Below, in pieces: positions 19,401 through 63,568 of a DNA stretch of 64,000 nt. How positions within the stretch are numbered: the stretch's first letter is position 1; each line of letters opens with the position of its first letter. The translations under genes and the position numbers were made by a program. The notes beneath the pieces are model-generated. The model was not told where the DNA came from and did not search any database. It saw only the letters and a list, made by a program, of their open reading frames with translations. The stretch comes from Owenia fusiformis (lineage: Eukaryota; Annelida; Polychaeta; Sabellida; Oweniidae): positions 32,617,375-32,681,374 of the forward strand of contig CAIIXF020000005.1 of NCBI GenBank assembly GCA_903813345.2. Reading direction: 5' to 3'.

Positions 19401-22400
19401 TAGCAGGATTTTTTGCGTATTTTACACAGATCTTCCAAAGGGGATATGAACAATTAAACCCTTGGCATTTCTTGGGACGCAATTTTTAATTCAAATTCTT
19501 CGATTGAAAAAACAAACAAAATTGAAGTGTCCCGTATTCCATCTTCAATGCTTTCAACATAAATAAAGAGTAATGATTCTTGTTCCTTTCTGCAATCATA
19601 ATTCACAGAACTTCCACAATATCTGCTTTCAAAGCACAGAACTATAGAATTTATAAACACTTGCAACATACTCTAATTATTGATAATTATAGTGATAACT
19701 AGGGGTCTAATTGATCATAACAGTGAACCCATATATGCATATTATGTGTTCAAATTATATGCAATCTGATTCCATGGCAATAAATATTGAAAACAAAAAG
19801 TAATATTTCTGATTTTTGTTGGTTTATCATTGCAATGAATTACATGAATAATCATCAATCTGTTTTAACTCTATCTTAAAACATTTCGTTGAAAATCTGA
19901 CCTTGCATTTTAAGCCCATTTTCAAATGAAAATATCTACAATCTGCGATGACATATCAATTCCTATTTGCTATGTTATATTTCAGACACCATTAGGTATC
20001 TCTCCCTTCATGACAACAAGTACATCAGGTACTTTGGTGGTCACACTAAGAAGGTGGTGTCACTCTCTATGTCTCCCATTGACGATACTTTCATCTCAGG
20101 CTCCTTAGACAACACAATCAGACTATGGGATTTACGGTCACCAAATTGTCAGGTAAGGGTACAACTTATTCTTTGAATCTCAAAAAGAAATTGTACATAT
20201 AATACAAGTGCATCTCCAAAATTGGTCAAAATATGCCAATTTTTCATGATTTTTCTCATTTTCAAGTGGGTGCAAATGGATTTTCAGGTGGGTGCAAGCC
20301 TATTATCAAAATCTCACGTGGGTGCTAGCCCACTTGCTTTAATGCTTGGGAGATCATTGGTTATTCTAAAATAAGAGGATCGTCCTGTTATCCATTAATG
20401 GCAACTTCATTTATCTGACATAAAAAACTCATTATTTTATAGGGCCTGATGCACTTACCAGGTAGACCAGTGGCAGCATTTGATCCTGAAGGACTTATAT
20501 TTGCAGCGGGTATAAACTCAGAGATGGTGAAACTCTATGATCTTAGATCTTATGATAAGGTGAATTACTCTATCATAAAAAGATAAAAAATTTCATATTT
20601 TTATTGAATTATATTTTACTAAATGATGATGAATTATGATCAAATATGTATTAACTTTTAGGAAAAAGTAATCAATTTGTCAAAGAAAAATACATTGACA
20701 GCAGTTTCCAAGTTCAAATATGGATATTATCAGACATTCTTTATCTGAACAAGACATACACTTGTGGGACTGAGTTTAATACATGTGTTTGGCAGTTTAA
20801 ATACTTTGAGTAGCACATATCTATAGTGTACATAGATGTTGTTTAATGGGAGGGATGTAATATGTATTTTTATATTTTCCCTCAGAATAAAATTCATATT
20901 CCCTGCCTCCCTCCCATTAAATAACTTATCATTAATTGAATAATTTAGTGATATTTCATATGTGATGTAATTGTATCATACATGAATTTATATAACCCAT
21001 GACACTCATATAAAATTTCACAACACAATTTACAATCACATGTGTGCAATCAACTTGCAGGGCCCATTTGCCAGCTTTAAGATGCAACAAGATAGAGATT
21101 GTGACTGGACAGGGATCAAGTTTAGTCCTGATGGTAAGCTGGTGCTCATTTCAACAAGTGGACAGATCATCCGTCTCATAGACTCCTTTCAGGGCACACC
21201 ATTACAGACATTCATGGTAAGTTTCATGATAAATTGATATGAAAATGTTACCCACTCTGTCATCCCACATACTATTTTGAGCAAAATCACTTTGATTTCC
21301 AGACACAAAAGGATATGATGCTTTTACATGTTTGTGCTGAAAAGATTGTGATGGTTTATAAATGTACTTGTAGAGATACATGAACAATTGTAGATAATGT
21401 TGTCCTGACAACAATGGCAATTTGTATATATGTAAACTATTGATTTATAGAAATAAATGTGAAGCAAGTAAAAAAACAAAACAGAAGGGTCCCAATATAG
21501 GCTTCATTTAGTCATTGATATGTGAATTGATGTATATGAATCTACTTGTAGAGCTACATGAACAGAAGGGTCCCAATATAGGCTTCATTTAGTCATTGAC
21601 ATGTGAATTGATGTATATGAATGTACTTATAGGGCTACATGAACAACAGAGGGCTCCCAATAGAGGCTTCATTTAGTCATTGATATGTGAATTGATGTAT
21701 ATGAATCTACTTGTAGAGCTACATGAACAGAAGGGTCCCAATATAGGCTTCATTTAGTCATTGACATGTGAATTGATGTATATGAATGTACTTATAGGGC
21801 TACATGAACAACAGAGGGCTCCCAATAGAGGCTTCATTTAGTCATTGATATGTGAATTGATGTATATGAATCTACTTGTAGAGCTACATGAACAGAAGGG
21901 TCCCAATATAGGCTTCATTTAGTCATTGACATGTGAATTGATGTATATGAATGTACTTATAGGGCCACATGAACAACAGAGGGCTCCCAATATAGGCTTC
22001 ATTTAGTCATTGACATGTGAATTGATGTATATGAATGTACTTATAGGGCTACATGAACAACAGAGGGCTCCCAATATAGGCTTCATTTAGTCATTGATAT
22101 GTGAATTGATGTATATGAATCTACTTGTAGAGCTACATGAACAGAAGGGTCCCAATATAGGCTTCATTTAGTCATTGACATGTGAATTGATGTATATGAA
22201 TGTACTTGTAGGGATACATGAACAACAGAGGACTCCCAATAGAGGCTTCATTTAGTCATTGATATGTGAATTGATGTATATGAATCTACTTGTAGAGCTA
22301 CATGAACAGAAGGGTCCCAATATAGGCTTCATTTAGTCATTGACATGTGAATTGATGTATATGAATGTACTTATAGGGCCACATGAACAACAGAGGGCTC

Positions 22401-23729
22401 CCAATATAGGCTTCATTTAGTCATTGACATGTGAATTGATGTATATGAATGTACTTGTAGGGATACATGAACAACAGAGGACTCCCAATAGAGGCTTCAT
22501 TTAGTCATTGATATGTGAATTGATGTATATGAATCTACTTGTAGAGCTACATGAACAGAAGGGTCCCAATATAGGCTTCATTTAGTCATTGACATGTGAA
22601 TTGATGTATATGAATGTACTTATAGGGCCACATGAACAACAGAGGGCTCCCAATATAGGCTTCATTTAGTCATTGACATGTGAATTGATGTATATGAATG
22701 TACTTATAGGGCCACATGAACAACAGAGGGCTCCCAATAGAGGCTTCATTTAGTCATTGACATGTGAATTGATGTATATGAATGTACTTATAGGGCTACA
22801 TGAACAACAGAGGGCTCCCAATAGAGGCTTCATTTAGTCCAGATTCACAGTTTGTTTTCAGTGGTAAGTTTCAAACACACCTCATGCCAAACAATGCTTT
22901 TCTTTTAAACAACATCATATATTTGTGTGCATTCAAAATTATGAATTTATGATGACATAACTGGAAACTTCTTGAACAATACTTTCAAACACCTGTTATT
23001 CAAAATATTAATAATGAAATAGAAGACTCTGAATGAAATAGGATACCTGCCTATGTAAAGAAAGTCTTGCAGTCACAGACAACCTTCTAAACGTCATGAA
23101 TGAAAATATACAAGGTGGGCCAGAAAACAGATATCTTAAAGTATATAACACACATTAAATATAACATTCATTCAACATTTCTTGTATATTGTGTATATAA
23201 TAGGTTCATCAGATGGCAAGATCCATAGCTGGAACACAGATACGGGAGCCAAAGTGGCTGTATTGAATTCTGAGCACCAGGGACCTGTCACACGCATAGC
23301 TTTCAACCCACATTTCATGATGATGGCTACAGCCTGCTCACAGATGGTAAGTATAGCATCCACATATGATCAGATCACACTGATCTGGCTTCTGGTCTTA
23401 ATATCTGGTTTCTATTTTGTTTCTGTGCACATTGTGAATATTGTTTTATACTCTATAGAGTGTAAAAATCTATAAATATGAAGCAGAATGAATATGGGAA
23501 AAATTTAAATAATTTAAGAAAATAGAATTTAAAGATGATAAAAATGTCAGATATGGAAAAAAACTAAATTGGAAAAATTATTGAAATGTTTGAAAAATGA
23601 AAAGCCAATAAATAACAATTGTAAACGTGTCAGGATAGAATACAGTACATGTACATATGAATGCCTTTCTTATGACTCTATATATGGTCAATGTTGCAGG
23701 GATTCTGGCTGCCCAATGATGTGGAATGA
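16445..23729 (+). CDS. WDR82: WD-repeat protein WDR82 (Swd2 orthologue), 8 coding exons
   Basis: The exons are 16445-16611, 18996-19093, 19986-20152, 20443-20559, 21061-21216, 22794-22863, 23204-23346 and 23700-23729. All phases agree and give 315 residues, or 313 if translation starts at the second ATG (16451). The second start matches the MKLTD start and 313-residue length of human WDR82. Diagnostic blocks are RVAKLFREN and [14 protein letters not shown] (exon 1), SKKYGVDLI (2), [20 protein letters not shown] (3), [11 protein letters not shown] (4), [10 protein letters not shown] (5), SDGKIHSWN (7) and the terminal FWLPNDVE (8). WDR82 is a seven-bladed propeller that recruits SET1 COMPASS H3K4 methyltransferase to RNA polymerase II. 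It is also part of PNUTS-PP1 termination complexes. Exon 6 (70 nt) sits at the end of a tandem array made of its own 5' part. Intron 1 carries a hAT MITE and a pogo-like MITE. Confidence 0.96.
16665..17384. mobile_element. 720-bp hAT-type MITE with perfect 8-bp target duplication
   Basis: The ends are TAGGGATGGGACGG on the left and, reverse-complemented, TAGGGGTGGGACGG on the right. They continue into cggttcggttcgg-type sequence. The 8-bp duplication ATTGTAGT is intact at 16657-16664 and 17385-17392. It is inserted 53 bp after the exon 1 donor of WDR82. No transposase frame is seen. Confidence 0.92.
18262..18757. mobile_element. 496-bp pogo/mariner-type MITE
   Basis: The ends CAGTAGAACCTGTATATC and, reverse-complemented, CAGTGAAACCTGTATAATCC are flanked by TA on both sides. 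GAACACC recurs several times internally. It lies in WDR82 intron 1. Confidence 0.88.
20215..20362. repeat. Eroded copy of the 14339 MITE family
   Basis: It shares aaaattggtcaaaatatg and the following tcatgatttttctcattttc with 14402-14450. It then repeats an AAGTGGGTGC-type motif three times and ends ttgggagatcattggtta. It lies in WDR82 intron 3. Confidence 0.6.
20838..20930. repeat. Short inverted repeat in WDR82 intron 4
   Basis: GTTGTTTAATGGGAGGGA near 20838 pairs with TCCCTCCCATTAAATAAC near 20910. The intervening ccctcagaataaaattcat recurs near 29482 in the PPM1H gene, so this is a dispersed family. Confidence 0.6.
21481..22840 (+). repeat. Tandem array of the WDR82 exon 6 acceptor (81/84-bp units)
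   Basis: Sixteen truncated copies precede the true exon 6. A typical unit is gaattgatgtatatgaatg, then an acceptor (ttatag or ttgtag), then about 40 nt of exon 6 starting GGCTACATGAAC and ending CTTCATTTAGTC, then intron again. The 81-bp type lacks 3 nt (ACAGAAGGG for ACAACAGAGGG) and roughly alternates with the 84-bp type. Only the last copy continues into the complete exon and its GTAAG donor. Copies using the upstream acceptors run into a stop (TGA or TAG) within the unit. The first copy has a degenerate left side, and a fragment of the same kind occurs at 21360-21395. Confidence 0.95.
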
Positions 23730-25789
23730 GACCATGGTGTCATCTATTAAGAGCTGCAATAAATAAACAACCCATTAACTGCTCTAGCTAATGTGGCAGT
23801 CATGGAATCTCTACAATACTCTTCTGTGAAGATGAATGAACATTTCAAGGGACAGGAACAAGTAGATGGTGTTCTTGCCTAAAAGAATTCTATCTCTTAA
23901 AGGCCCTATTTTTAAAAAAAACTATAAAAGCCTGCAATATGAACCATCTGCAGACTTTGACACAAAACTTATTGCACAATTACAGAACAGTAGTTTGCGG
24001 CATGACATGTGCAAATTATAAGGGGTGCATGCACCTCTTAAATTACCCAGGTGCGGGTAGGTAGTTACCATTTTCACCACCAGGTGGCTAGTTTGGGGTA
24101 GATAACATGGCAGGATATTAGAAAGTTCCCTTAACTTGAATACTGTGAAACATGTTGATTAATTCATCAGAAAAGATATTTCCCTCACCAAGAAGTCAAG
24201 AAGAAAGTTAAATTTTCGAAGTTTATAAACACTTTTTAAAACCACATTTCTAGATGTAATTTCACATGTGGAAGAATTTTGAATAATGTAAACCAAGGGT
24301 ATTTCTACTCGCATCTAGTTTATTGAAAAGACAGTTCACCTACTATCTGAGCTATTTTTTCAGGCACTATAAGTTCACTCTACTATACCTTACCCCTAGA
24401 AATGCATAAGATATTCTGTTTGTCTAATTGTATTGTTTAATATATTTTTGAAAGTACCTTATTAACATCTAACAGTCATCCGATAAACCATTCATAAGGA
24501 ATAGACACACAAAAACAAATCACATAATCATTACTGATATGCCAAATAGGTTGCTCATGGACACAAAATGCAAGGTATAGTAGAGTGAAGTTACTGAAAA
24601 GGAAGTTGTATCAAAGTCTGTTGATGGTACAATGTCCAGGCTTTTCTGATCTGGGGTATTTTAAGATCAGAAATAGACATTGAGTTGTTTTATGGGCAGA
24701 ACTTAATATAGCAAGCTCGTTATGTTCATCTGATAAAAAAAGTAACAGGTTTATTCAGGAAAATTAGTATGTGTACTTGTTATTTTTGTTGTCATAAATT
24801 ACAGCAATTTCTGAGGATTCATTTTCTTGCTAAGGCCTTAACAAGAAAAAATTATTTTTTGAAGCAAGAAATGAAAAAGTTGTGAAATATTATTAGTGTA
24901 GTCAAAAGTAGCACTCTAGCCTATTACATGTACTGTACATGTACTGTAGTGTTGTAGTTGTCAGTATACATTATGTTCCTTGTAAAATCCAGTTATATTT
25001 TATATTTTTTGTACCAAATGTAGACAATTGTTACCCCAACCAACAAAGTTTACCTTGGAATAGTGTGTCTGGAAAGTAACTACGAGATCGCTTTGTCAGA
25101 TTCGGCTCATATTTTATTGGTAGGTACAATATTGGCACAGGATCTCTGCTCAAGTTTCAAAAATTACCACTGTTGTTATTAGTGTATGATGTCTAAGTGA
25201 AACAACTGTATTGGCATATTTTAAATCCTTTGTTAACATGATTTCCATTTTTGATTCGGCTCTTTATCAATAGAAACCTATAGCTCCCAGATCAATTATT
25301 TAGCCATTACTCAGGAATTATTTAAAATGACATCATAATTGTAATGGATGGTTGGGATTTGATTCTGTATAAGAAGCCTATTTACTACAGTAGTTTACAT
25401 AATAGATGGTGTACATATCATATGTGTAAATATTGTAAATAAACACAAAAATTATATTAAGATTTATTTGTTATGTTTTATTAAACAAATATTGCATAGT
25501 TCTTAATTACATAATATGAAATCCTGTCTCTTGTCCAATTTGAGACAGTCCTCCATAATCAAATGCAATTAAATGTATGTGATAGGGTTTTAAACCAACT
25601 CTAACCACTGAATGTACAATATGGAAAATATCAACATATTTTACTAACAAATCTTCAATAATCCCCATTTTATATGGAAATTGAATCTTAAACTGTTAAC
25701 AATTAAACACTCCTCATGTAAAAGCTCCTTATGTAATAAGCAACTTTCAAATTGAGTCTCAAATTATTGCCCATATAAGAAAGGAACTA
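23730..25789. other. WDR82 3' flank and intergenic sequence
   Basis: The WDR82 3' UTR begins here, with AATAAA-like signals close to 23758 and at 25438. No second gene is seen. The stretch 24045-24340 (gtaggtagttaccat, caccaccaggtggct, ccacatttctagatgtaat) is a fragment of the dispersed repeat also found at 53275-53720 and 37060-37340. Confidence 0.5.
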
Positions 25790-25944
25790 TAGTAAACGGT
25801 CTTGGTGAACACCTCTCTAGAGTAGACACCCTTTACAAATACTCCACTGACTTCTGTATAAATTACCCTCTCTGTGATGAACACCTACCAACACTGAACA
25901 TTTTTTTATAGGCAAAAAATGTTCAATTTACACAGGTTTTACTG
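25790..25944. mobile_element. Short degenerate MITE of the GAACACC family
   Basis: The left end is eroded (TAGTAAACGGTCTTGG). The right end, reverse-complemented, is CAGTAAAACCTGTGTAAAT. Internal text (gaacacctctctag, tgatgaacacctacc) matches the element at 26115. Confidence 0.65.
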
Positions 25945-26114
25945 GAATTTAAAGCATACATGAATGTTTGTCAAGAGGGAAAACAAAAAACATGTTCACA
26001 TTTTCAAAAACAAGAACTTGTATAGTATACAAAACACTGCAATTTGAACACTTTGTTCCATTGAGAACTCATTTATTTTATGTGAATTTTAAACAATACT
26101 TTGTTTACTATATT

Positions 26115-26289
26115 CAGTAAAACCTGTCTTAGGGAACACCTCTCTAGTAAACACCTGTGTCTAGTGAACACCTCTTCATAGCACACACTTCACCTTTCTC
26201 TGGTTAAAATTGCCTCTGTAGTGAACACCTACCTACAATGAACACACTTCTGTGGCTCCAGAGGTGCTCAATGTACACAGGTTTCTATG
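26115..26289. mobile_element. 175-bp MITE of the GAACACC family
   Basis: The left end is CAGTAAAACCTGTCTTAGG. The right end, reverse-complemented, is CATAGAAACCTGTGTACAT. GAACACC recurs internally. A TA follows the right end. It is the second copy within 400 bp. Confidence 0.7.
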
Positions 26290-26841
26290 TACTATATTAC
26301 AATTTTCAACAAAATGTTCAGTTTTGGTAATTCAATCATAATACATGTGTGAACTGACAATATATTATTTTGGGTAATGTAGGATAGAATACATGTATTA
26401 CCTGATAAGAAATTCAGAGTTATAACAAATGTTCAGACTGGATACTATTGATCTCCAAATATATGGAGAACCTTGCGGGAACATGTTAAAACTGTATGTA
26501 ACCTACTAAAATGTAACCAAATAAAGGATGCCAATGCCTAATTTTAATGTTGTGATATTCTGGTGCACTTATTTTGCTCCATCTCCATGCCTGCTCTAGC
26601 ACTTTCACAAAGCTTTATTTTCATGATTTCTTTCATACAAATGAATTTGAAGAAACACATTTTGAGTTAGTATTTAGAATATCCTATATATTTATTAGAA
26701 GCCTTCATTTAAATGTATTAAAAAGGTTATAATGGAAAAACAATCTTTGGAATGTAGGATGTTATCACATTTTACACTAACTGAGTATTGCATTATGACA
26801 ACGCTCAATTATGTGAAATTATTACTACATGTATTTCTTTG

Positions 26842-27116
26842 TTAAAGGGATATTCCTTGCAATTTTCTCTCATGATATGCTTATTATTTCTATACAATTT
26901 TCTCTCATCATATGTTCGCTAATTATTTCTATACATCCCCATATTACCATATTTAAACATAGCAGTCTACTGTAAATGAACACTGCACTTTTAAATGATA
27001 ATTTTGACCATACAGTATCAAATCATTTTGCCATGTTTTGCTAAATTTGGATAATATAAAATGGTTATAGCTACCATATCAGGAGAGAAATTGGCTCATA
27101 AGGAATATCCCTTTAA
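26842..27116. mobile_element. 275-bp MITE with TTAA boundaries
   Basis: TTAAAGGGATATTCCTT at the left mirrors AAGGAATATCCCTTTAA at the right. The inverted similarity continues through the ATTTTCTCTC and GAGAGAAAT blocks. TTAA at both edges suggests a piggyBac-like or Kolobok-like origin. Confidence 0.75.
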
Positions 27117-27951
27117 ACAGTTTACTCCAATACCTAGCTGAAATTTGATGACTACATCCTGTGATAAATATTAGTGGGCCGGGAATCATTTCTGACAAAC
27201 AAATGTCTGTTGATATTGTACCTATTAGAACATGGCCTTAACATGAAAAATGTCATCACCTGCCATTTGTTAATACCACTAAACACCAATTACCAAAAAA
27301 TGACAAATTATAAAAAAAATAAAAACCCTCTAACTGTCTTACATACAAACATTTGGAAATAAAATATATTATACATTTTGTGTAACTACATGTATTTGTG
27401 CATACAGTATATACATATATATAATAGTAAAGAGAATATCTGTTTACAGTTATATTGCACTTTTATATATAAATGTTGTATGAAACTAATTTGTAAGGCA
27501 CTAATTTTACAATACAAAATTACTTCACTTGTACAAATCTACAAGAACTATCTTTGCACATATTTTTTACTCCCCATTATTGTATTACATAAAATAACTA
27601 TTCTATTTCTTCAAGCGAGGCAGTCTCCTCGACCAGTTACTAGATTTCAAAACCACATTATCTAGATTTCTCATAAGACATAACATCATTAACAGAAATA
27701 ACATCATAACTATACCAATGGCAAGAAATACTGTAAATTAATAATGTTTAAAATAAACAACCATTAGGTAGATATATAATTTATTCATGTAATGTAGAGA
27801 TATAATTTATTTATGTCTCTACATTAGCTGTACCATCTAAAATCTTCATTACCTGTAACTACCATGTAACTTACATGGTATAAAAGAAAATCTGCATTGC
27901 GTTTTAGACAGCTTTCTGAAACCACTATAATTACATCCTCTAAATTACAAG
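27117..27951. other. Intergenic sequence and 3' UTR side of the phosphatase gene
   Basis: No exon is seen. The sequence is AT-rich with a short direct repeat (gatataatttatt) near 27773-27820. Confidence 0.4.
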
Positions 27952-30900
27952 TTATCCATTTTCTAATTTTTCAGGGATGTGTCCATTTTGAGTATTTATT
28001 GAACAGCTAGGACTATTGAGCTGACTTAATGGAATTATAAAAGCAGTGATGTCATCACCTGATGAAGGTCGGTCATTTTCCATGCGCCAACCACGTCCTT
28101 TGGGGTGTAAGTGACCTCGTGCTTTTGAGACTAATTCCTGAGCTGCTGAAGTGTAACTGCAAAAGGAAATTGGTTCAGGAAATCGCATATTCTTTTCAGA
28201 TTCATGACTCAAAATATGAAACTGACATTGTTATGACCAGTGAAAATAAGTTAGTTTGCTTGCAATTTTACAGGTGTTTCTTTTGGCAATTCAGAATTTA
28301 CCAAGAATCCAAGTCATTTTCCAAGTCATATTATTAAAGCATATTCAACGTACAAGTAATAATGTATTGACATGCTTTTCCTGTGTATTATACTGGATGT
28401 TAGTTACTCTCATAAATATGTGGAAATAAAATAACTTTAAAATATATCATAGGCTTTCAAGAGAAATGAGTGGTTAAGATGACCTTGCTGATTAATACTA
28501 CTCACCGACTGTCTTCATTCTGACTGAATTTGCGAAGATCCTCCCGCACTATTCTACCTGTGTCTTGATTGGTCATGACATCCCATAAACCATCAGAGCC
28601 CATCACCAGGATGTCATCTTCTGTGTGCTCACAAGATGTCATGTCATACACTTGGACCTATAATAAGATGTCATGTCATACACTTGGACCTACAATAAGA
28701 TGTCATGTCATACACTTGGTCCTACAATGAGATGTCATGTCATACACTTGGACCTACAATAAGATGTCATGTCATACACTTGGACCTACAATAAGATGTT
28801 ATTTCTAGATCTAGTTTATGTATAAACCTCGACCATTGAATATCATGGTCATACTTTAGTATTTCATTGCTGAAATCATAACCATTATTTACCATCATAG
28901 TTTATCAAAAAGATGCTTTCATTAGATACTCTGAACATGAACAATTATGAAATTGAAGGAATCTGTACATATTTACATTGTGACAAACCACACTATTTCA
29001 TTGTATTTTATGCTTACAGATCACGAGTCAAACAACCAGTTTATGTCATTGTACTTCATTATTGACCAGTCCATCACACTACCAGTGTACATTCTCATAG
29101 TTGATACTGGAGCCAAATTTGAAAGTAATAATCTATTTTGGAAACACGCATCGAGTGCTATTCTAATATCTAATACTTAGCAGTATTATTATATGTATTC
29201 TAAATGATACAGTACCTCAGGAACAGGAGACAGAAAAGGTTTGATGTGAATATCAGATGAATGGACCTTTAAATCATGGTCCCCAAATCCCCTAGTGACA
29301 CCTATGGTTGCTAATACCCGAGTCTGAAACAACAATAACATGCTTAATATGAGCATGAAAGAACATGCATTATGTGGAACAACAATAACATACAGTATCT
29401 CATATGGAAAATATCACATTGACACTCAGGCTATCACCCTCAGTCAATATGATATTTTCCGTGACCAATATCATATCTTCCCTCAGAATAAAATTCATAT
29501 TTCATCTCTCCCATTGAATAACCTCTATGTAACCCATGAATATGTCTTTCCACAGGAATTACAACATAATCAATCCCACATCCCAGACCCTGATTTCCCA
29601 TACCCTACTTTGTAATATAATACTTACCCTCTTTCCTTCTCCATAGATGAGAGGATATTTTAAATCTTGCTCCTCTACTGTCTTATAGAACCTGAAAAAG
29701 GGTAGAATTGTATTTAAGATTAATGATTCAGAATATCTCATAATCAAAATAAACTAGGATGCAGATCAATTTCATCTTGGCATATGCATTCCACCAATCA
29801 TCATTGTCAGCTTTGAGCTTCGTCTCCTATTCTGACCATGTCCACTGCAATGGTGCAAAGGGCTGGTTGGCAGCTACATGTAGCACATGGAGATAGGATT
29901 CAGATGAGCCATACATCATACATTTTTGTACACATTAAAATTTTATGCTTCATCATGAAACTAAAAGTGGAAGCAAGAATGATTCTCACTAATCTGTTGC
30001 TGTTGCTGGCTTGCAAAGCACTGTAGGCAACTCAGGAGTTGCATGTTAGTAAGAAGTCAATATGGGTGTGGTTCATCTGTCCCCCCTCTCACACCTACAT
30101 GGTGAAGTACAATACCTAAGTTACAATATTCCTCATATGCAGCTGTATACAATAGCACCCTCAAAACACTACAGAATATATTATCAAAAATGCATCTGCT
30201 TTGGGAGCCATCTTGAATTTTCACCAAGAAGAAGTGTGATCCTCACTTGGCAGGACAATTCAAAATTTAAGTATGCCAATAGTAGTCAAATGCCAAAAAT
30301 TTGACAAGGATTTCTAAGCAATCTTAGTACATTTATACATCTTCCAAAACTATCCTCATGCAAAATTCATTTTATTGATTTGACTAAATGATTAAAGTAT
30401 CATACCATCCATCCATAAGGGCATCCCTACATAATATCTTTTTGCCAATATCTCGTCTATGTACTCTCTTCTGGAACTCAAGGTGGGTGAACTCATTGTG
30501 GAGTAACTCAGGCTGAAGGTAACCCAGGTAGGCTATTCGCTTTCTTTCACTTACAGGAGTAAAGTCTGTTGACATAGGGATAATCTCTTCCCCCCTGTAG
30601 ATGACAGCTCTGCAGTCCCCTGCATTGGCCACATAGAGTTTAGCTCCAAAGAATAAGGCTACAAGGGCAGTGCAACCACCTTTTATCCTGAATGTGGTTC
30701 GCTCTCTTGCTATTTGTTCATCCTACAAAATGAAGTGTGAACAGTTATTGCATGAAATGTTAGTAGAAACTAGAGCTCGATGGAATTCAATTTTTTCAGA
30801 TATGGGCAGCTTTTGCCTAGGGGGGTTCACTTTTCAAAAAATTCCAGAGGGTTCACATTTGAAAACTTTGGCCCAAAATTACTTGAGAAGTACTAAAAAT

Positions 30901-34372: not shown

Positions 34373-34652
34373 CGTTAATACTGTTCAAAGCTCTTCATTT
34401 CATAATTTTCAAATGAAACTTTAATTTACATCCTCCATTTTGAACGGGAAGTAAGTCATGTGACCACTTTTTGCTGCTACGAGACACGGTAACAAACGTT
34501 AACGCATCAGGGGTTGACCAAAATGGCGGATATTCAGATATAATATCCGATTTGATCGGGAATAAAAGATACATACATGTAACTGTAGGAACTATGGGCA
34601 CAGTGGGCACCATCTATCTAATATCTTATCTATAGATCTAAAGAATATATAT

Positions 34653-44838: not shown

Positions 44839-45102
44839 AAAATGGATAGTCTATATTGTTTTAATTCAAGCCATTTCTTCTTCTTGATCCTTTTTACGTA
44901 AGTGTCCGTGTGACACTACATGTATTCATGTGCACTATTGGCATTATACTGCCATTTGTTGTTAAATGCTGATCATGTCTGCATATTTCAAGGCTGAATG
45001 GCAGATATTCTAAACATGACAGCAAAAATGCCATTCATGTCTGACATGCATTATAACTGGCTGTTAATTCAAAATAGCAAATCTAAAAGATTTGAACGAG
45101 AC

Positions 45103-45933
45103 TACTATTTTTTTCAAGGCCTGTCTGCATCGCTAACATGCTAAATATAAGAGTTAGCTGACGTTTGGGAGTCTGACTTACCTTCTAAAGGTTAGAACCC
45201 GAATCTTAATGAAACCATATCACCTTTGTTCCGTCAACCATGGAGCATTTGCCACAACATCCAAGAGGTAAATCATGGATCGAGAAAATGAATGATTTCC
45301 TTGTAAGTTCCGGAAGTTTCAATACGAAAAATTACCGAACATATGTGAAAACCGAATATTTGTTCGTTGTTTTCACGATTTACAGGTTCGTTTGTTCTTC
45401 AATGTTTTGGTCTCAATTATAAAGCATCACCAACAGGTCTTTCTCTATTAATCGACTAATACAGCAGACGGCTCATATTTCTACGTAGCATTTCATTCAG
45501 ACCAATAGTGGGAGTGTAGATCACGCAGTTTCGTTCGTTGCGTTCTTCACTTGAAATTGGTAATTTTTAATATTGACTACTTCACTTAGCTTGGCGGATG
45601 TAGAACATTGCTTAATATTCTTTTAATTTTCACACCAGACATGCTTGGTTGACACGTCAACAAAGTAAAGTTCAAGGGTCAATGCGTTATTTCGTGATAA
45701 CTACAACGCCTTCCCGGAAGTCAACATTTATGAAAAATGAAAAAGTCGGAAAAGCATTTACGCTAATTTCTATCAAATGCTATGTTTATGCATCATCATC
45801 GACGCAACAAAGGTGATATAGTTTCATTAAGATTCGGGTTCTAACCTTTAGAAGGTAAGTCAGACTCCCAAACGTCAGCTAACTCTTATATTTAGCATGT
45901 TAGCGACGCAGACAGGCCTTGAAAAAAATAGTA
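45103..45933. mobile_element. 831-bp element with about 125-bp terminal inverted repeats
   Basis: TACTATTTTTTTCAAGGCC at the left is mirrored by the right end (45909-45933). The arms continue through cgctaacatgctaaatataa, gacgtttgggagtctgac and aaccatatcacctttg on the left. A 60-codon open frame in the middle has no recognised motif. The family is not identified. Confidence 0.8.
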
Positions 45934-46833: not shown

Positions 46834-49800
46834 ATGGAAGAGCGTGAGGAAATGGCTGAGGATGGCCAAGACAATCCTGATTATACACCAGCTATATCTG
46901 CCATCCCTCCCAGAGTTATTGCACATGAGGAGAGTCAGATGGAGGTCTCAGCCAGTCCTGCATTCCAATGCTTAGATGACGTAAGTGATGATCACACCCT
47001 CGTTATGTTGATTGTACCCTTAGATCAGTGAGAAAATGTTGCTATGTTACATAACCTCTCAGGGATTTCATTAGAATTTGAAAAGGAAAATATATTAAAA
47101 CAACAGGCTAAACTATTGGAAATTACGATTTCACTGGCAAATATTCATAATTTTTATGAAAAATATTATTAGAAATGGTTCATAAACGATGAAGTTTTAG
47201 TGTAACATTTGACAGACCTGCCAACTTTCAATTGAGAGAATAAAAAAGTCATTTCTTTTTACTTTTGTCAAAAATCTACTATATTAACAATTCTATTCTA
47301 AACACTCTAGATATAAGAGTGGTCAATTATAATAATAAATCTGTTATATACAAAATCTAAATTTACAAATTATTTGATGTTCACTACCCTTAAAAAGTTT
47401 ATGGGAGTGTATGTATTATTGCATGCTGAAGACCTGTATCGGTAAATTATTTACATGTAGCAGTTGTTGGCTAGGAATTATAATGCAAATTCTAGGGTAA
47501 TTAATCACCATTGTATACTTTTATATAGTTTGAAAGTTAATTATGATTTCAGTTCAATCTTGCTATCTTGAAGTCCATACACCTGTGACCTGTCCATAAT
47601 AAAATATATAGCAAACCTTGCTAAAGATTGCTTAGAAATCTTTGATGAATTTGATTAGTTAATTTTCAAAATGTCTCGGCGTTCTGCCATAAGTTTTCCA
47701 AATTCCTGCGGTCGCACTTTGATTTCTGTCCTTGCAAGGGATAGTTCGCTGTTGAATGGTAGCCACATGATACCATCCTGATGTATACTCTCATATTCTC
47801 CACCCTGGTAGAAGATACCATTCAGGTTAGCTGACATGCAGCTATGATACCACCAACCACCTATACACAAAATAATATCATGTTACATTGCAACTTTCAC
47901 CATACCTTAATTGACATTATGAATTATATAACTCAAAAAGTGTCTTTATTATGGAAGATATGAACTTTTATACCTTCATATGCAGCAGCACAATTGCCAG
48001 CATGTAGATCATGATCTCGATCCCTTGTGCTGAATCTCATCTTGTGATGACGTAGGAAATAGTTGCCATAGTGGAAAGCATCCCCAGCTGTCCCATTGTA
48101 TTTCCCAACCATCAATCTGTAGGAGTCAGTCTCATCAGAAAGGCGAAACTGTCAATTTTGAAATGAACAGATTAGAGGTGAAACTCAATAGTGATATGTA
48201 CAGGTTAGAGGTGAAACTGTCAATAGTGATATGTACAGATTAGAAGTGAAACTGTCAATGGTGATATGTACAGATTAGAGGTGAAACTGTCAATGGTGAT
48301 ATGTACAGATTAGAGATGAAACTGTCAATGGTGATATGTACAGATTAGAGGTGTAACTGTCAATGGTGATATGTACATGATATGTATAATTAGAGACTAA
48401 ACAGTCAATAGTGATATGGACAGATTTGAGGTAAAATTGTCAACTACTAGAATATTTTTCTTTTTTACATGTCCATCCTTGGAACAAATGTGTTATTGCT
48501 CAAAAACAATGATCAATTTATCTATTGCTTACTCTGTCATACTGGGCATAGGCATAAAGATCACTGAAGTCCCAGAGATCAAAGCGGATCCCATTATTAC
48601 CATAAGCATTGAGCAAATACATTTTCTCTAATCCTAGCCAGTGCTCTCCCTCTACATCACCAAAACCATTCTGAAACAGAATTCAAAACTGCACATATCA
48701 AATCAAGATCTTGAGTTAGGCTACTGTATATAACTGCTCTTTAGAATTTTATGTACATGAGTGTGATTTACCTTATAATCTCTCCAGTCTCTGTCAAAGT
48801 TTTCCCCTCCATCTGTACGTCTTTGAATGACAGTCCATCCACCACCATCTGTCTCCATGTCACAATAGGCAAAGAAGGCTGTTGAATTATCTATGAAATC
48901 TGGCTGGATCATATATACCCCACTTTCATTGAGACCTGAGAGACGCATACTTGCACAATCAACACCGACTCCTGCAAATACAAAAACACATGTGCAGTTT
49001 ACACACTGATGTAAAGATAGAATTGAACAAATTATTTAGGTTCTCTATAAGTTTAAGGAACACATTTATTGCGAGGAAATGTGGCACTAACATTTTAAAA
49101 TTAAATTTCATGAAAATTAGTTTACCTATTGGCATTTTTTTCAGATCATCGCCAGGTCTTGGTCGCCTGATGAGTATATGAGGCCCAGGTTCGGTTTGAC
49201 CTGTATACTCTGCTTCAAGACGATTGAGTTTGTCAGTTAACTTATTAACAGTACGGTCACATTTCCTCACCCTTGCATTAATACTGCAAATACAATCAAA
49301 ATATCATACGATTTGATTTACCTGATGGATTTAGCTTTGGTTTTGGTTCTCGCTCTTTTGGACGCATCACTAAAACATCATTCTTTTTGTTGTTTCGTAT
49401 TTTTCCTGTAATTTTCAGTTCTAATGATTTTACTTTCTTTTCCAATGATTTTATATCTCGTTCACATCTGTCAAGTTTATATTCATCAATTCTGGAAATT
49501 AACACAATTATTTTTTTAAATATTTATTTATATATTTTATATATATAATGGTCCTTAAAAATGAAATGATCTAATGCATAGCTTTTATATTGTATTTTGT
49601 ATTGTAAATACATTATTTGCTTATTTGTCGAAATTATTTGTAATTTTGTGCAACCCCTGTAGCTGTATGCTTTGTATAACTATAAAAGGTTCAAGTTTTG
49701 ATTAGTTCACGAAAAGTAATTTTGAGGGTTTTTTAATTTGTGTTCATCATGATATACTCACTCAGCTGTTCCTGAGTTCTGTCCCACATTCTGTCCTAAA

Positions 49801-55800: not shown

Positions 55801-58800
55801 ATTGATTGAAATAGTTCCAGCATATAAGCACTGATTTATTGGGGCTTTGATCACAAACATTGAAACTTCTAGGGTATCCGGCAAATTAACTTTTAAGGGT
55901 CTGTCCATGTGTACTAGGTCGTTCAATTAATTCATGCAAAAACAAAATTAATTAAACTAATTTTTTTTATTTTTCAATATTTTTCCTTGATACTTTCACA
56001 TACAGAAAAATACCTATTCATTAAAAAACAAAAAATAAATTACTTTGTTCTGATTGGTCAAAAGATTTGGGTATCTTAGCCATCACGTTTGTGAAGAAAA
56101 AACATGTGGCCCAGGTATCTACATGTACGTCACTGTTTTATATAATTGTTTCTCATTTTTTCGTGTTTCATTTATAGCTTACTGAAATTAATGGTTTCAA
56201 TGCCCTCCAATGATTTAAAGCTCTTTGCCTCTTTATTTTGCCATTATTGTTGCTAATGGCTTTATCATTTGTTTCAGCCTGCGTGAAGAGAAAAGACTGG
56301 TGGAGAGAGAATATTCCAGACTTCCAAAGCAAGGGGTACGTTAGACCTCATAGCTATTTTATAAAATCGACACAGATGTACAATCAGATAATTGGAAATA
56401 TTGCCATGATTGAGTCAAGACAAATCTTCCTCCAGGCCATGAATGTTTTCTTTTCACTCAGCAAATGCTGCCATTTTTCATGTATGTCATTCTTTGTTTA
56501 TTTGTTCTCTATTTCAACATTTGATCAAACAAAATATGCAATCTGTCTCCCATAATTTTAGTGATCTGTGGGTGATTGCTTCTCTGCATGCTATTTGTGT
56601 GTGTTCCTTGTTATATAATATTTAACTTGGCTTTGAAGCCTTCAAGAGTAAGTTATAATTTGCCCTTGAAGTTTAGAGGAACATGACTTTTTCCTGTGAC
56701 TCTATAATTGCTTTGACTTTTAGGTTAAACCCAACAAGTTACTGGCTCATCCAGAATTCTTATGTCTGCATGTTTTGCATATCTCGCTTTTCATGTATAA
56801 CTATGTTATTAACATGTGATACTTTATTTTCTCAACTGCTCTCAACTAGCTATGCCAATGATGCATACATTTCTTGAAATAGAATTAACAAAAGACAATT
56901 TCCTTTTATATTTCTTTTTGATGAAATAGTTTAATTTAGTGCAATATTTATCAAATGTGTTTACGTGAAAGTAACCTGTATATGTAGAAAAATGTTAGAT
57001 AAAGCTTATGTTGGTTTAAATCTACATTTAACTGTTTGAAACAATTCTAGAAATATGGAAATGTTCCTTTAGATTCATTATTTCCAAAGTTCTCATTGTC
57101 AAGCCCAGATGTTTTTTGTATCTATGGCTCTTTAACAATGAAAATTGATGGCATTTCTGCAACTTTACCAGCTGGAATTACTGTCTGTTTACCCAGTTTA
57201 TCAATTTTAACATTATCATTATTGGTTGGTTGTCTAGTTTGCAAATAGTATTTTAGTATGGGTGGGGAGGAGGTTTGACGTGTGGTATGCTTAATGGTCA
57301 GTCTGCCTAGAGTATTTAAGTATTCAAATTGTTCGTTTGAAATTAAACAGTGTATTATTCTCATTTATTCACTTTGTATAATAATTATACTCTTACTTCA
57401 ATATTGTATAGATGTTCACTTGTATGATTTTAAAACATCTAGATCACCATTATATTATGTTAAATGTTTCTTGAATAACCTCCATATTTTAAGCTCAGGG
57501 TTGTTACATCATTTTTCACTCAGGTATGATAGATATGTGTACAGTGAGATTTTTGGCTACTCATGAATCAATCTTAAAGCAGATGGAAAGCATACTTCAT
57601 AGAATAGTCTAAATAACTTATTTAACTGGAGACAACTGATATATCATATAGTTTTAATGCAAGTTGTAGAATGCATTTGACTTTGCTGAATGGGTTGATA
57701 ATGAACTAGTGTACACTATACAGTCTATGAGATGAGTCTTGATAATCACTGTACCTTTAGCAGGTATAATATTATCATCAATCCGGTTGGTGTATGGGTA
57801 CTGCCATCTACCTTTGTTAGCCCATTTCCTCTGACAAAATGATATGCAAATTTCAGGGACCTTTTTTGGTGTGAAAATCTAGAACTGGGCACACTTGGTA
57901 AACTTAAAGATTGCCTGTCTATAGGTGCAATATTGTTCACTGTGTGCCTTTTTTGTTTTTTGTTTAAAGAGAGAATCAGAGATAGCAGCAGGCTAAACAA
58001 AAAATTGTTTCAATTTTAGAATATTTTTGGCTCATGTCATTCCTTGTCATGCCTATATTCTAAAAATCACAAAAGTGCATACTTTATTCATGGAAAATAA
58101 AAGATTTTTACAATAATGTATCATTTTTTTATAAGAATGGTTACCATTCTTATTATTTGGGAGAATTTAAACATTTTTCATCCATTTTTGAATTTTGAAT
58201 CATAATAACTTCACCAATTTATAACATATTGTGAATCTTTTTGGAGATATTGTATTTGAGATTGTAAGGAATAGATTGGTAGGTAAAGTATGCACGTTGC
58301 TTGTAATTTTGTCACCTCCTATAGATCTGATTCTGCCTTTAATTGCAATACAATTGCTTGACACATATGTGTGTCTTATTGTTTTAGGAAATTGAGAAGA
58401 AGATAGAAGAGCTGCAACAGACATGTGCAGACATGAGGAAAGAGATTGGTCAGCGCCAACTTGAGGCTAAGAACCTACGTGAAGACCTGGAAATGAGGAA
58501 GAGGCAATACACCAATGATAACAAAGAATATGAGAAAATCACCTTTGAACTTGAGAAGCTCAAGGTAATTACCATTGCACCAAAGTATTTCAATGTATGT
58601 AGGTGCAGTCTTGTGGATTTTCTTTGTGGTTAGATAGTGAAACATTTTGATGAAAGTGGAAGCGAGAACAAATGTCAATACACATTTTGTTCTCCCAATA
58701 TTATTACAGTACTTAGATATCATAAGAAGACACTGTTCTCTCATTAGGCATTCAAAATTGACGAATGTTCTGTCAGGAGGCCAACTCTAAAAATGATGGC

Positions 58801-61800
58801 AGATGAAAAATCATATTTAGAAAACACAACTTTATTATTGTTTTCAGGTTATGTTCTTGTATAACGATCTGTACAAAATTGTTCATTCTTGATGACCTTT
58901 AAAACTTAAACCTAGCTTTAGAGAGACCAAATGAAAAACCCAAAAATGTGAGATTACATGAAGCCAAAACAACCTAGTCTACCAGGCAAAATATTTCAAA
59001 AATGCAATATACGTCAGTAATAATTATATGTGTTTGATGTACTAAGTGTTAGTGGGGTCACCGTGAACCTCATTTGCACAGTTTGCCTAATTTAATGATG
59101 CCTACAAACATCTTTCGGCACATTTAGAATAATTGAAGTCATAAGTCATTACAAGACTTTTCTGAATTTTACATTCTTACTTGGTGGAGATTCGTGACTT
59201 TGAGGACCAGTGCTTTAACCCCTGATATTGAAATTGTTCTTTCTTCGACATTTCCCCTCCACATTTGTCCTCCTCATTTTTAGTCTGTACAGGACAATAC
59301 TGATTAAATGTTTTTAAAAAGTCTAAAAGTAGCTAGATTAATGTGGTCATTCCCACAGGCATTTCTAATTGGCAAATGCCTGCATTTGGACAGTTTGTAT
59401 GTTTTCTTAAGATAAACTGCATCCCAACCAACTCTAATTGGGAAGATCATGTAAAATGCATCAAAATTACTGCAAAGAAAGTATCTTTTAAGGGTCAATG
59501 CACACTGGTATGATTTTGATCTTTGTGGAGATTTTGATGAGGCACTAAGTGGGCCATAGTGGCTAGACCTTTAGTGTACAGAGAATGCTTTGCTTCAGGC
59601 CCGTAGCCAGGGGGTTCCAAAATTTCTTTCAAAATCATGCAGTTTTCACCATTCTGCCGATTTTTTTAGGATTTTTGGCCAAATTTGCCAAAGTGAACCC
59701 CCCCCTAGAATTTTTTGGAAAAGTGAACCCCCCCCCTTGGAAAATTCTGGCTATGGGCCTGTGCTTCTATATATTGACTCCGTGATAATAACTCATTCCC
59801 TTTATAATGCCTTGTACTTGTGATGCCTTCACCATTGCCAAAAATATGTGGCTTTCCAAAATAAAAACATATGATGTCAGTGAGTAAGTCAGCTGTGATC
59901 AATTTATACACATTAGCTTGTAGGTGATACCATAAAAGACCCCCTCAAACCTACTAATGACAGAACAACAACTAATTGCTCACTCAAAAAGCTGTCTGTT
60001 GAAACAATTCAACCCTAGTTGCTTCAAATTGTATTCTGAAAGTCATTTTTTAAATATTTTAGCAAGTTCAAGTTCATACCGTTGGTTCCTCCATTTATAT
60101 TTATTTGGCTTGAATGAGAAAATGTACTGAGTGCTCCTCCAGTAAGATTGTTCACTTCTTTTGTTTTACCCAAAGTTTGCTACTGTATTATGTGTTGATT
60201 TATGTTTTAAGTACTGTATTAACTTAGCCAATGCACATCAGTATCCAGCTTTTTCCAAGAGGGGTTCACTTTTCAAAAAATCCAGGGGGTTCACATTTGA
60301 AAATTTTGGCCCAAAATCACTTGAAAAAATGCTCAAAATGGTGAAAAACTGCATGATTTCGAAAGGATTTCCCTCCCCCTAGTTACAGGCCTAGCTGTAC
60401 TTATCAGATTTGTACAAGTGGTTCAATTTTTATAGTTGAAATATTTACATATGATTTGTTTTGATTTGAAAACTTTATTTAATTTGCTTAAAAAGTATAT
60501 GCATTTACATGAATCTTCACCTTTTATTGAACATGAGGCTAAAATGACAATTCATTCATCTTGAGACCCCGTTTAATAAACCCCCTCCCTCAGATCTGCC
60601 AACACTTGAGTATTAGGTACTAATTTGATAAATGATCTTTACTTCTAAAATGGATGAAATTTTTGTCACCAGTGTGTCGCAGAAAGTATACTTGATTAGA
60701 AATGCTGTTACTTTTTCAGGGTGACCTTGTTTTAGTGAATCAGATCCCAAACCAGATTGCCAAAGATACAGACAAGCTTGCCAGACAGAAAAAGTAAGTC
60801 TACACTTTCTATATATCAATTTGACGTAACTCAAGCCTGAGGTTAAGTGAACTATAAGATGAATGCATGTAAGAGATGTTTGTAATAAATCCAATAAATT
60901 GCCATATCCATATGATATCTGAACTGCGAGGCAGTTGTTTGTGAATTTTTAAAGTTCAATTGTTCTTATTTCAAATGTACATACATGAATATGTTTTTCT
61001 TAGTATGGGGAAATTGTAACGTACCTTTTGCTTGGTCAAATGTATGAATAAGTAGGAATGGATGACCGATAACAACATTTTATTGTTAATAAATTTAATT
61101 CTCGAAATAACCATTTGACCCAATATGGCCTTTCAACATCTCATTTAGCAAAGTTCAAAGAGAAGTCATAACCTTTGATTTGTAGGCTACCCCTAAGATG
61201 ATAAACATAATGTTTCTAGAAAAATCACCTGAAATCACTAACCATTGCATGAGGAAAAATTTGTCTAATTTTTCTTAGATCCATTTTAGGATCCATGAAA
61301 ACATGACTAGCCTGCCCTTAATAAGATGACTGCTTTTTTCTTTTTTATACTGATTCTATCTTAGTTATGCAAAAGTGGGTTTATTTAGTTTAAAATATTT
61401 TCATATCATTTCAGTGAAACAGACAAAAATCGTAAAAAGCTAGATGAGGAGCATAAAGACCTTCACACAGCAATCCAGAGCATTGAGAGCAAGCGTCAGG
61501 AGTTGCAAGAGGAGAAGTTTGAACTTGACACTGAAGTGGACAAGCAAAGGTCCATACTGGAGGAAAAGGAACGGGAGTTTGATGTTTTAATGAAAGACTT
61601 TGAGTATGCCAAAGAGCAGGAAGCTGTATTGATGGGAGACAGGTACTTTATTATCTCAACTAATTAAGGGATATAGTGAAGCCCTCCATCTGCTAGCTCA
61701 TCTATGGCTTTATTTTTAAGCCAAAATATATGAGGCAGTGTATAAGTTTATATGTTTTAAGGCATCTGTCAGTTCCATTTGGGAAATAACTCAAATACTT

Positions 61801-63568
61801 ATACACACATTTTCTCCATATTCGTTGGAAAGATGTATTGAACCAAAAAATTAGTATTACTAAAAAACTAAGCAATTGAGTTATTTATGTACAATTTATT
61901 TCCAGGGCAACACTAGATCTTAATTTAAGACACATTCATCTCGAGAAAAAAACAAATCATGACATTCACTCAAGAAAATTAAGAGAGAAAGATCGTGATT
62001 TAAGGACATTGAAAAAAACTGAGCTTCAACTTAAGGTTTCACTGGATGCCCTAGCTCATCAACAACAAATATATGATAAGGCAAAAGGTCAGGTGGATGC
62101 ACTTCCCAAAGATGATGGCACATTACAACATAAACGTGCTGAGTTACAGAGAGAGGTTGATACAACTAAAAGAGGACTTCAGCAACAGGTAAATTGTGAC
62201 TCATAGGGAAGGCAAATATAAAATGTTGGCACTAATCTAAGGGATAGATGGGAGTCAACTGTTTGAAGTCAATGGTTTGCTTACAACTCTGTTTATATTT
62301 TCTGATAAAATGAATTTTGATACCTATCAGAAATTAATTTTATTTAATAATATGCAGAAAAGTCCAAATTCATAAGAATTAAAAAAAGGCCGCATTTCTA
62401 AGTGAGATATTTATAACTGGGTGCCTCCATTTTTTAGAATGCAGAGAATGAATGATCAATGGAGTAACATTTTGTATGACATTTAGCAGTACGACTGATT
62501 AGTAGACTCTAAATCTGTTGTTCTTTGTGTTTCAAAACTGCAGCAGTGACCTCTTTAAATAAAGTGTGTTGTTCTTTATGTTTCAGAACTCTTTGACTGC
62601 AGTAGAACAGGTGAAGGTAGAACAAAGTGTAGCAGAGGAAGAGCGCCTCTTGTATGACCAAAGTGATCTCAGAATTGAAGTTGTGGAACTTACAAGGCTA
62701 GCTGCTATAAAGGTATCAGCTAATTATAAGCCAGTCAATGTTTTCATTAGCCTGGCTGATTAGTTGCCAGCCAAATTTTGCATTAGGCAGATATGCTGAT
62801 CAATGTTTTAATTAGGCTGATTCTAAGGCAATCGATATCTTCTTTAGGCTGATTATAAGCCAATCAATATCTTCTCAAGGCTGATTATAAGCCAATTGAT
62901 GTTTCCTTTAGGCTGATTATAAGTCCGTCAATATTTTCATTAGGCTGATTATATACCAATTAATCTTTTCAATAGGCTGATTTGCCAGTCAATGTTCCCA
63001 TTAGGACAATTATAAGCTTATCAATGTTTATTCCTCTTTATAGGCTGATGAGAGGGAGCAGAAGGCAAGGGACTTCATGCGTGCAGAGATGAGATACCAT
63101 AGGGCGGTGGAAGACCTCAAAACAAAACAATTGCAGATACAGGACCACCAAAAAAAATTTCAAGAAATGCAAACAAAGTGAGTCTGTTGTTCCCTGTATT
63201 TTATTTCATCTGGGTTTGTATGATACGATGATAAGAAGCCATGTCTGTTTTCATCATCTGACATTCACCTTTCCCATAATATATTACAACTTAATATCAC
63301 AACTATCTGCTGGGTATACAACAATCTATGGGTATCAGTATATCTCAACTATTACCCAAGTTACTATGTATATCTGCTTTAATGCTAATGTTGTTCATTG
63401 TAGATTGAAGGAGTTTGCTAAGATGTATGATGTGATCAAGAATGAGAGAAACAAATGTGTCAATCTTATACAGACCAGTACACAGAAGGCTGCAGAAATG
63501 AGAGAGAAAATAAAAATATTACATAATGAAATAGAAATTTTAAGAACTGCAGCTTCAACTAAAGAAAA
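46834..63568 (+). CDS. CCDC146: CCDC146-like coiled-coil protein, 5' 11 coding exons (gene continues past the right edge)
   Basis: The exons are 46834-46980, 55266-55348, 55585-55794, 56278-56335, 58388-58564, 60720-60793, 61415-61642, 61906-62188, 62587-62712, 63044-63177 and 63404-63568. All phases agree and give about 561 residues. The first ATG (46834) follows an in-frame TAA at 46801, and the exon begins at an acceptor at 46792-46793, so an upstream non-coding exon is likely. The protein is almost all charged coiled coil, with blocks that match vertebrate CCDC146 in order: [89 protein letters not shown] and [16 protein letters not shown]146 is a centriole- and flagellum-associated, microtubule-linked protein needed for sperm tail formation. 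Intron 1 (8.3 kb) hosts an antisense gene. Exons 9 and 10 have repeated acceptors. Confidence 0.93.
47655..52661 (-). CDS. Angiopoietin-like fibrinogen-domain protein, nested in CCDC146 intron 1
   Basis: The minus-strand exons are X1 52661-51981, X2 49946-49762, X3 49491-49322 or X4 49283-49126, X5 48971-48772, X6 48670-48533, X7 48148-47974 and X8 47860-47655. The product is 584 residues with X3 or 580 with X4. It has a signal peptide ([16 protein letters not shown]), a charged region with a coiled coil ([20 protein letters not shown]), a cysteine cluster ([16 protein letters not shown]) like that of angiopoietin-like proteins, and further coiled coil. The fibrinogen C-terminal domain runs from X5 to X8: [57 protein letters not shown] and [12 protein letters not shown]. 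Such proteins are secreted oligomers that act as ligands or pattern-recognition lectins. Which role applies here is not known. X3 and X4 are predicted alternatives. TATAAAG lies about 60 bp upstream of the ATG. Confidence 0.9.
48149..48440 (-). repeat. 35-bp tandem repeat spanning the X7 acceptor of the fibrinogen gene
   Basis: On the minus strand each unit is CTGTACATATCAC then CATTGACAG then TTTCACCTCTAAT. The real X7 begins at 48148 with TTTCGCC after aaaattgacag. About eight more units lie upstream in intron 6, most keeping the TTGACAG|TTTC form. Confidence 0.93.
49126..49283 (-). other. Alternative exon X4 (158 nt) of the fibrinogen gene
   Basis: It enters in phase 2 (GA|T ATT AAT) and leaves in phase 1 (CCAATAG|gtaaac), the same as X3. 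It encodes [19 protein letters not shown], then [19 protein letters not shown]. It is similar to X3 in layout: Cys, heptad-like stretch, TG, then hydrophobic-RRPR/MRPK and a basic tail. Confidence 0.85.
49322..49491 (-). other. Alternative exon X3 (170 nt) of the fibrinogen gene
   Basis: It enters in phase 2 (GA|A ATT GAT) and leaves in phase 1 (CCATCAG|gtaaat). It encodes [19 protein letters not shown], a coiled coil with one Cys, then [19 protein letters not shown]. It is compatible with X2 upstream and X5 downstream, not with X4. Confidence 0.85.
52718..52724 (-). promoter_or_regulatory. Possible TATA box of the fibrinogen gene
   Basis: TATAAAG on the minus strand lies about 57-63 nt before the ATG at 52661. 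This leaves room for a transcription start about 30 nt downstream and a short 5' UTR. It is sequence-only evidence. Confidence 0.45.
53087..53213 (-). pseudogene. Duplicated, broken copy of fibrinogen-gene exon X2
   Basis: It closely resembles 49737-49864, including the GTGAGT donor and 20 nt of following intron. Compared with X2 it has a 1-nt deletion and an in-frame TGA shortly after AAAATGAAGAAA, so it cannot substitute for X2. It lies upstream of X1, outside the gene, and is therefore a dead duplication. Confidence 0.8.
53275..53720. repeat. Dispersed repeat fragment
   Basis: Its left part matches 24045-24125 (gtaggtagttacca, caccaccaggtggct, taacatggcagg). Its right part matches 37070-37345 (atctgtccactaaaag, catggggtctatggggaat, tacgtaaatcaagatta). 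Confidence 0.75.
54955..55080. repeat. (CCAT)n-like microsatellite
   Basis: This is an imperfect run of tccatccatcc, cacccacctaccc and similar tetramers, shortly before CCDC146 exon 2. Confidence 0.8.
57964..58339. repeat. Dispersed repeat fragment in CCDC146 intron 4
   Basis: It is a close copy of 36676-37053: gagagaatcagat/gag, ggctaaacaaaaaattg, ggttaccattcttattattt, gtaattttgtcacc, and tagatctgattctgccttt. That sequence is internal to the large element at 34653-37798. Confidence 0.85.
59596..59761. mobile_element. 166-bp MITE with 5-bp target duplication TGCTT
   Basis: The ends CAGGCCCGTAGCCAG and, reverse-complemented, CAGGCCCATAGCCAG are flanked by TGCTT (59591-59595 and 59762-59766). 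A partial copy with the same left end starts at 41362 in the carboxypeptidase gene. Related internal sequence is at 30803 and 60245. Confidence 0.8.
60245..60395. repeat. Second CCDC146 intron 5 copy of the CAGGCCCGTAGCCAG family
   Basis: It contains gaggggttcacttttcaaaa, gggggttcacatttgaaaat, ttggcccaaaatcac and gtgaaaaactgcatgatt. It ends in ctagttacaggcctag, an eroded terminus. Confidence 0.65.
62517..62605 (+). repeat. Two-copy duplication at the CCDC146 exon 9 acceptor
   Basis: GTTGTTCTTTGTGTTTCAAA followed by ACTGCAGCAG (62518 onward) duplicates GTTGTTCTTTATGTTTCAGA followed by ACTCTTTGACTGCAG (62567 onward). The true exon starts after the CAG at 62584-62586. In the upstream copy the acceptor AG is AA. 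Confidence 0.75.
62735..63043 (+). repeat. Degenerate 32-35-bp tandem repeat spanning the CCDC146 exon 10 acceptor
   Basis: The unit is TTTAG|GCTGAT then tataagccaatcaatat and cttc. Copies lie near 62750, 62808, 62852, 62880, 62912, 62943, 62975 and 63002, and the authentic junction is TTTATAG|GCTGATGAG at 63043/63044. Several intronic copies keep a good TTTAG|GCTGAT acceptor. Confidence 0.85.

Follow-up and report, generated by a model that had tools for sequence, protein, structure and literature searches.

Tandem repeats running across exon-intron boundaries, at acceptors and donors alike, are a real and widespread feature of the genes sampled here from the annelid Owenia fusiformis, and the original prediction that such repeats are tied to acceptors only is refuted in these samples. 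Arrays of this kind have been called mirages. After curation, our collection comprises 29 arrays whose unit spans a boundary, 3 from the window (the whole 64-kb stretch of DNA analyzed, C5:32617375-32681374 of a 498-Mb assembly) and 26 from blind samples of the same genome, and six of them were displayed copy by copy. The blind arrays lie in 21 of 56 loci, in unrelated genes, as the prediction of a widespread phenomenon had it, and are found at about 3.5% of the sampled blind splice junctions (26/740).

The window contains animal genes with introns, and five acceptor arrays had been proposed there, of which three are clear. The first lies in a WD40 gene (Pfam WD40 match at exon 19986-20152) that we take, from its sequence, to be WDR82-like. 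This array, at 21480-22839 on the plus strand, consists of about 16 units of 81/84 bp, as judged by TRF and by reading; it includes 46 nt of exon, and its last copy continues into an authentic 23-amino-acid exon (22794-22863, plus strand) for which a Pfam search returned no match. The other two clear arrays, likewise called by TRF and reading, are on the minus strand. One, at 28633-28799, has 5.2 copies of a 32-bp unit and takes in 25 nt of an authentic exon of a PP2C-type phosphatase (28506-28657; Pfam PP2C, 8e-7). The other, at 48141-48422, has about 7-8 copies of a 35-bp unit and takes in 8 nt of an authentic exon encoding a fibrinogen C-terminal domain (47974-48148; Pfam Fibrinogen_C, 5e-13).

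The remaining two proposed arrays, both on the plus strand, are weak. A diverged 32-bp array called by TRF at 62799-63017, in the intron preceding exon 63044-63177, ends 27 nt before the acceptor at 63044. It matches the edge of that exon at noise level (score of 20 versus a null maximum of 19), and other window arrays reach equal scores against distant exons; it is possibly an old acceptor-type mirage. At 62510-62590, a two-copy repeat (copies at 62510-62539 and 62560-62590, 50 bp apart) has a second copy that extends about 4 nt past the acceptor of exon 62587-62712. The pair aligns over 31 columns, and adjacent-window pairs (5,786, with arrays kept in) score equally or higher in 6.8% of cases. 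Among the 46 donors of the window, none is straddled by an array, in keeping with the prediction for this stretch. For units of at least 30 bp, 3 of the 8 window arrays straddle a junction, with 0.9-1.2 expected (P = 0.11); on its own, this value makes the window suggestive, and the evidence is supplied by the blind samples.

Further window genes, identified by Pfam or by reading, are a carboxypeptidase-like gene (activation peptide), a MOFRL/DUF4147 gene that is presumably glycerate-kinase-like, and a gene that we take to encode a coiled coil, two exons of which had no Pfam match. At positions 4114-5770, at least 2.7 kb from the nearest predicted exon, a 41-bp unit is repeated about 40 times. 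An inverted repeat (45103-45248 and 45788-45933) has 146-nt arms that are 95% complementary and 539 nt apart, and is perhaps a foldback element. A candidate for a mirage shared with a paralogue was rejected: the match on C6 to a 32-bp window array is itself a 32-bp array with no predicted exon beside it.

The blind sample comprises 56 stretches (292 kb) picked by the density of kinesin or myosin matches; genes with sparse matches were skipped or taken only partly. Forty stretches (197.6 kb) came from a kinesin family search with 144 matches, and 16 (94.5 kb) came from a myosin-head search with 92. One kinesin array, in which a single exon is present 18 times at 159-bp intervals, was visible already in the search and entered under the same inclusion rule. 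Exons were called with a home-made predictor. Its training set was 46 window exons, annotated by eye, plus its own kinesin-locus predictions, and it was frozen before the myosin loci. At the end it reproduced 39 of the 46 training exons exactly, a figure that is not independent, and a few of the training boundaries are thought to be wrong. Pfam identified kinesin, kinesin-associated, or myosin sequence in 20 of the 26 blind exons with straddling arrays at an E value of ≤0.03, five of these 20 being below the curated cutoff; exons of L010, L017, and L024, one of the L030 exons, and two of the L053 exons had no such match.

Curation preceded the placement counts. Three donors were left out, namely, those at L026:736-916 (a better candidate site is present 36 nt upstream of the predicted exon end), L036:2530-2636 (low score and low complexity), and L020:3650 (the first copy of an acceptor array), as was the acceptor at L053:5727, which is on the minus strand within an array that belongs to a different exon. 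The array at L042:4733-4820 was reassigned from exon to intron, as the Pfam match begins further in, and unit lengths were set by hand for L008 (64 bp) and for the window array at 21480 (83 bp). Nine predicted exons were slated for removal. Seven of these passed the score filter and are counted in the 24-mer recurrence test described below; they are absent from the exon-share and placement counts.

Comparing TRF arrays at acceptors and donors, the check on which the acceptor claim was to stand, yielded similar numbers in the 56 blind stretches. Of the 370 acceptors and 370 donors, 14 and 12, respectively, are straddled by an array that reaches at least 4 nt into the exon (binomial P = 0.85); for a reach of at least 8 nt, the counts are 13 and 10 (P = 0.68). 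Adding the window gives 17 acceptors and 12 donors (P = 0.46). By family, arrays straddle 11 acceptors and 7 donors in the kinesin loci and 3 acceptors and 5 donors in the myosin loci. A 3'-specific process is thus rejected in these samples, given the similar donor counts. Individual arrays illustrate the symmetry (all in gene orientation): L053 has one acceptor in 12 copies at exact 91-bp steps and L005 has 4 acceptors at 93 bp, while L056 has one donor in 9 copies at 121-125 bp and, in L052, 4 donors are spaced by 41 bp. Copies run into the intron in the arrays read, upstream of acceptors and downstream of donors.

Placement was compared with a model in which founding units fall uniformly. 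For units of at least 30 bp, 25 of the 42 blind arrays straddle a junction, compared with 10.8 expected when array density is taken from all arrays (P = 1.6e-4) and 4.4 when it is taken from the non-straddling arrays. The excess is present in both families (kinesin, 18 versus 7.8 expected; myosin, 7 versus 3.0). It is also present within the 337 introns between neighboring predicted exons, window included, where 20 of 32 arrays straddle and 11.0 are expected (P = 9e-5). Overall, the founding-unit expectation is exceeded 1.8- to 2.3-fold for these long units, and units of 10-29 bp show no excess in the intron test (1 of 53 straddling versus 2.2 expected); the 30-bp cut was chosen post hoc, after three size bins had been examined. 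With all unit sizes and the window included, 30 arrays straddle versus 14.7 expected (P = 3e-4; these figures predate the L026 correction). The prediction that chance would not favor these junctions is supported for units of at least 30 bp in both families, and its restriction to acceptors is not.

The excess is visible only against the founding-unit model. When 24-mers recurring nearby were counted, junctions did not rise above nearby intron positions: the counts were 22/422 for acceptors, 13/422 for donors, and 15/411 for exon middles, versus 32/422, 21/417, 26/418, and 22/414 for intron positions. Acceptors led donors in this test in the kinesin loci (15 versus 7) and the window (2 versus 0) but not in the myosin loci (5 versus 6). 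This test counts any copy for an intron base, whereas a junction can be present only in the founding unit.

Minisatellites make up 33.2 of the 356.2 kb sampled (9%). The share of the unit that is exonic ranges from 0.08 to 0.9 and leans toward exon (Kolmogorov-Smirnov test versus uniform, P = 0.03, on 30 arrays of which two were clipped at 1, with one dropped and one unit changed afterwards). Such broad shares fit founding segments that arose broadly, with a lean toward exon, and were then filtered by selection; they do not fit a process with a fixed start point. GC content is 0.431 in exons and 0.326 in noncoding DNA, and at 0.352 it is only slightly raised in non-straddling long-unit arrays, which weighs against a birth bias toward exons. 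Two of these non-straddling arrays look like old, displaced mirages. The L031 array at 2105-2808 matches the edge of the exon at 4787 (score of 68 versus a null maximum of 21), with open reading frames judged by eye to be retrotransposon-like in between, and the L041 array at 2712-2830 matches the donor of exon 2319-2451 (34 versus 22).

Several other features of the motor protein genes deserve mention. Retrotransposon-like open reading frames, again judged by eye, are in or beside kinesin genes at L031 2750-4489 and L010 2470-4793. In L013, the kinesin exon at 1861-1999 has a shorter near-copy about 300 bp away (2191-2274) that was not detected as a tandem array. Upstream of a myosin heavy chain gene (G000, C9:37986009-37994334), twelve irregularly spaced matches to one myosin-head exon (profile about 18-84) are perhaps a cluster of alternative exons. 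In one myosin gene, L048, two variant copies of exon GESGAGKTENTKK, which we take to be the P-loop exon, are at 6791-6896 and 7235-7337 and are perhaps mutually exclusive exons.

Extra copies mostly retain their splice signals. Compared with the authentic copy, 108 of 111 extra acceptors have kept AG and 62 of 69 extra donors have kept GT (no copy was obtained for L041), and across 28 arrays the signals are better kept than other dinucleotides (Wilcoxon P = 0.003). The original prediction had offered selection for spare acceptors or for splicing-coupled control as one cause, and there is no clear sign that the extra sites are retained by selection. The comparison with the authentic copy is inflated, because the authentic junction cannot change. 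Measured against the copy consensus, AG is off in 8 of 224 cells versus 398 of 4,802 elsewhere (pooled Fisher P = 0.008), a test weakened because its cells are not independent. When a random dinucleotide is drawn per locus, in arrays with 3 or more copies, the within-locus permutation gives a P value of 0.22 for AG, so the higher AG conservation seen against the authentic copy is not significant by this measure; GT gives 0.49 by Fisher test and 0.63 by permutation.

Splicing at an extra site would cause a frameshift or introduce a stop codon for 97 of 104 acceptors and 38 of 43 donors, in a count to which the donor arrays of L010 and L024 contributed no usable site and from which six junction arrays (L008, L014, L017, L026, L041, and L042) were left out. 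Because most extra sites would break the frame, splicing presumably uses the site on the exon side. In the donor mirage at L030 2482-2958 (57-bp unit), 5 of 16 extra donors would keep the frame and introduce no stop codon; these five might add 19-residue repeats to the protein.

We propose that mirages are minisatellites whose founding unit happened to span an exon-intron boundary, a reading that combines broad birth, a filter of selection, and growth on the intron side and that we consider the probable one. Tandem duplication of tens to a few hundred base pairs would occur at acceptors and donors alike, probably more commonly in exon-containing DNA than in plain intron, as the junction excess and the lean in exon share suggest. 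Selection would then remove duplications within exons, as the observations imply, and a junction-straddling duplication would be tolerated because the full exon keeps one intact splice site and the rest becomes intron. Copies accumulate on the intron side in the arrays that were read. In line with exon definition, the spliceosome would choose the site attached to the complete exon, since almost every other site would disrupt the reading frame. With age, as single cases indicate, arrays may diverge or become split from their exon by mobile-element-like sequence, so that old mirages come to resemble ordinary intronic repeats.

Four other explanations were weighed. A feature of the boundary itself, such as a nucleosome edge, an R-loop, a composition step, or co-transcriptional splicing, could raise the rate of tandem duplication at both ends of exons; the excess over uniform placement in both families and within introns would follow from this, but exon shares are broad rather than centered on the junction, and a list of non-straddling long-unit arrays read by eye has no evident pile-up beside junctions, which leaves junction-directed birth rather unlikely. 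That minisatellites are simply common enough for some to land on junctions is a simpler view, and the 24-mer result and the lack of excess for units of 10-29 bp agree with it; set against the 1.8- to 2.3-fold excess for longer units, we judge it improbable.

Maintenance of spare splice sites, or of splicing-coupled control, can draw on the intact AGs, the Wilcoxon result, and the pooled Fisher test. It appears very improbable to us given the per-locus permutation values for AG and GT, the inflation noted above, and the broken frames. Intron gain through tandem duplication of an exon segment containing AGGT, put forward for lancelet mirages (PMC3087553), appears extremely improbable here: among exons judged authentic, no array spans both one exon's donor and the following exon's acceptor or supplies both splice sites of one intron. 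The L020 array would be an exception only if the first copy, which was discarded as such, were treated as an exon.

Beyond broad founding followed by selection, we tentatively advance a bolder idea, possible if somewhat doubtful: that exon-intron boundaries, at either end of the intron, are favored birthplaces of long-unit minisatellites in this annelid, that arrays sit on a few per cent of all splice junctions, and that most genic long-unit minisatellites are present or past mirages. If so, a duplication process linked to boundaries and contributing to intron growth would be common to lancelets and annelids or would have arisen twice. With arrays at about 3.5% of sampled junctions, O. fusiformis offers a system for asking how minisatellites are born, how the spliceosome finds the correct site when as many as 18 nearly identical ones are present, and whether mirages lengthen introns or give rise to them. 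Gene predictors should be warned that array copies resemble good exons.

Ordinary intronic minisatellites are like the Owenia arrays in unit size, copy homogeneity, and likely turnover; they differ in that the mirage unit takes in coding sequence and a splice signal. In the Rogers model of intron gain, the duplicated exon reportedly supplies both new splice sites. The Owenia arrays share with that model tandem duplication next to splice signals and differ in multiplying one existing junction. The model is named in work on lancelet mirages (PMC3087553), and a potato RdRp case is reported in PMC4974935, among others.

Three matches above the cutoff to the erythrocruorin-linker family Eryth_link_C, presumably an annelid family, were found in the genome, and a profile search of it for the GFP family had no match, which does not prove absence. 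Amphioxus has 16 members of the GFP family (PMC2679011).

The original prediction knew of no named system, yet the structure is already published. In PMC3087553 and PMC3902484, mirages are described at 5' and 3' boundaries of the lancelet Adh3, globin, TnC, and PGBD5 genes, the PGBD5 case being added, with Adh and TnC cited, in the latter. Splicing is reported there as undisturbed and copy number as unstable, and an intron-gain model is proposed (PMC3087553). The Owenia arrays likewise have tandem units across the junction, an authentic exon at one edge, and splice signals in many but not all copies, at both 5' and 3' boundaries, and their units are similar in size (17-260 bp, versus 10-160 bp in lancelets). 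Somatic instability and normal mRNA are reported for the lancelet arrays; those of Owenia were read in one genome assembly. The matches listed in our literature search included no published annelid case. So far, then, as these partial sources go, mirages have been a lancelet curiosity from a handful of genes, without comparison with a placement model. The Owenia arrays have been set against such a model, their host is an annelid, and instead of being confined to single genes they turn up in 21 of the 56 blind loci.
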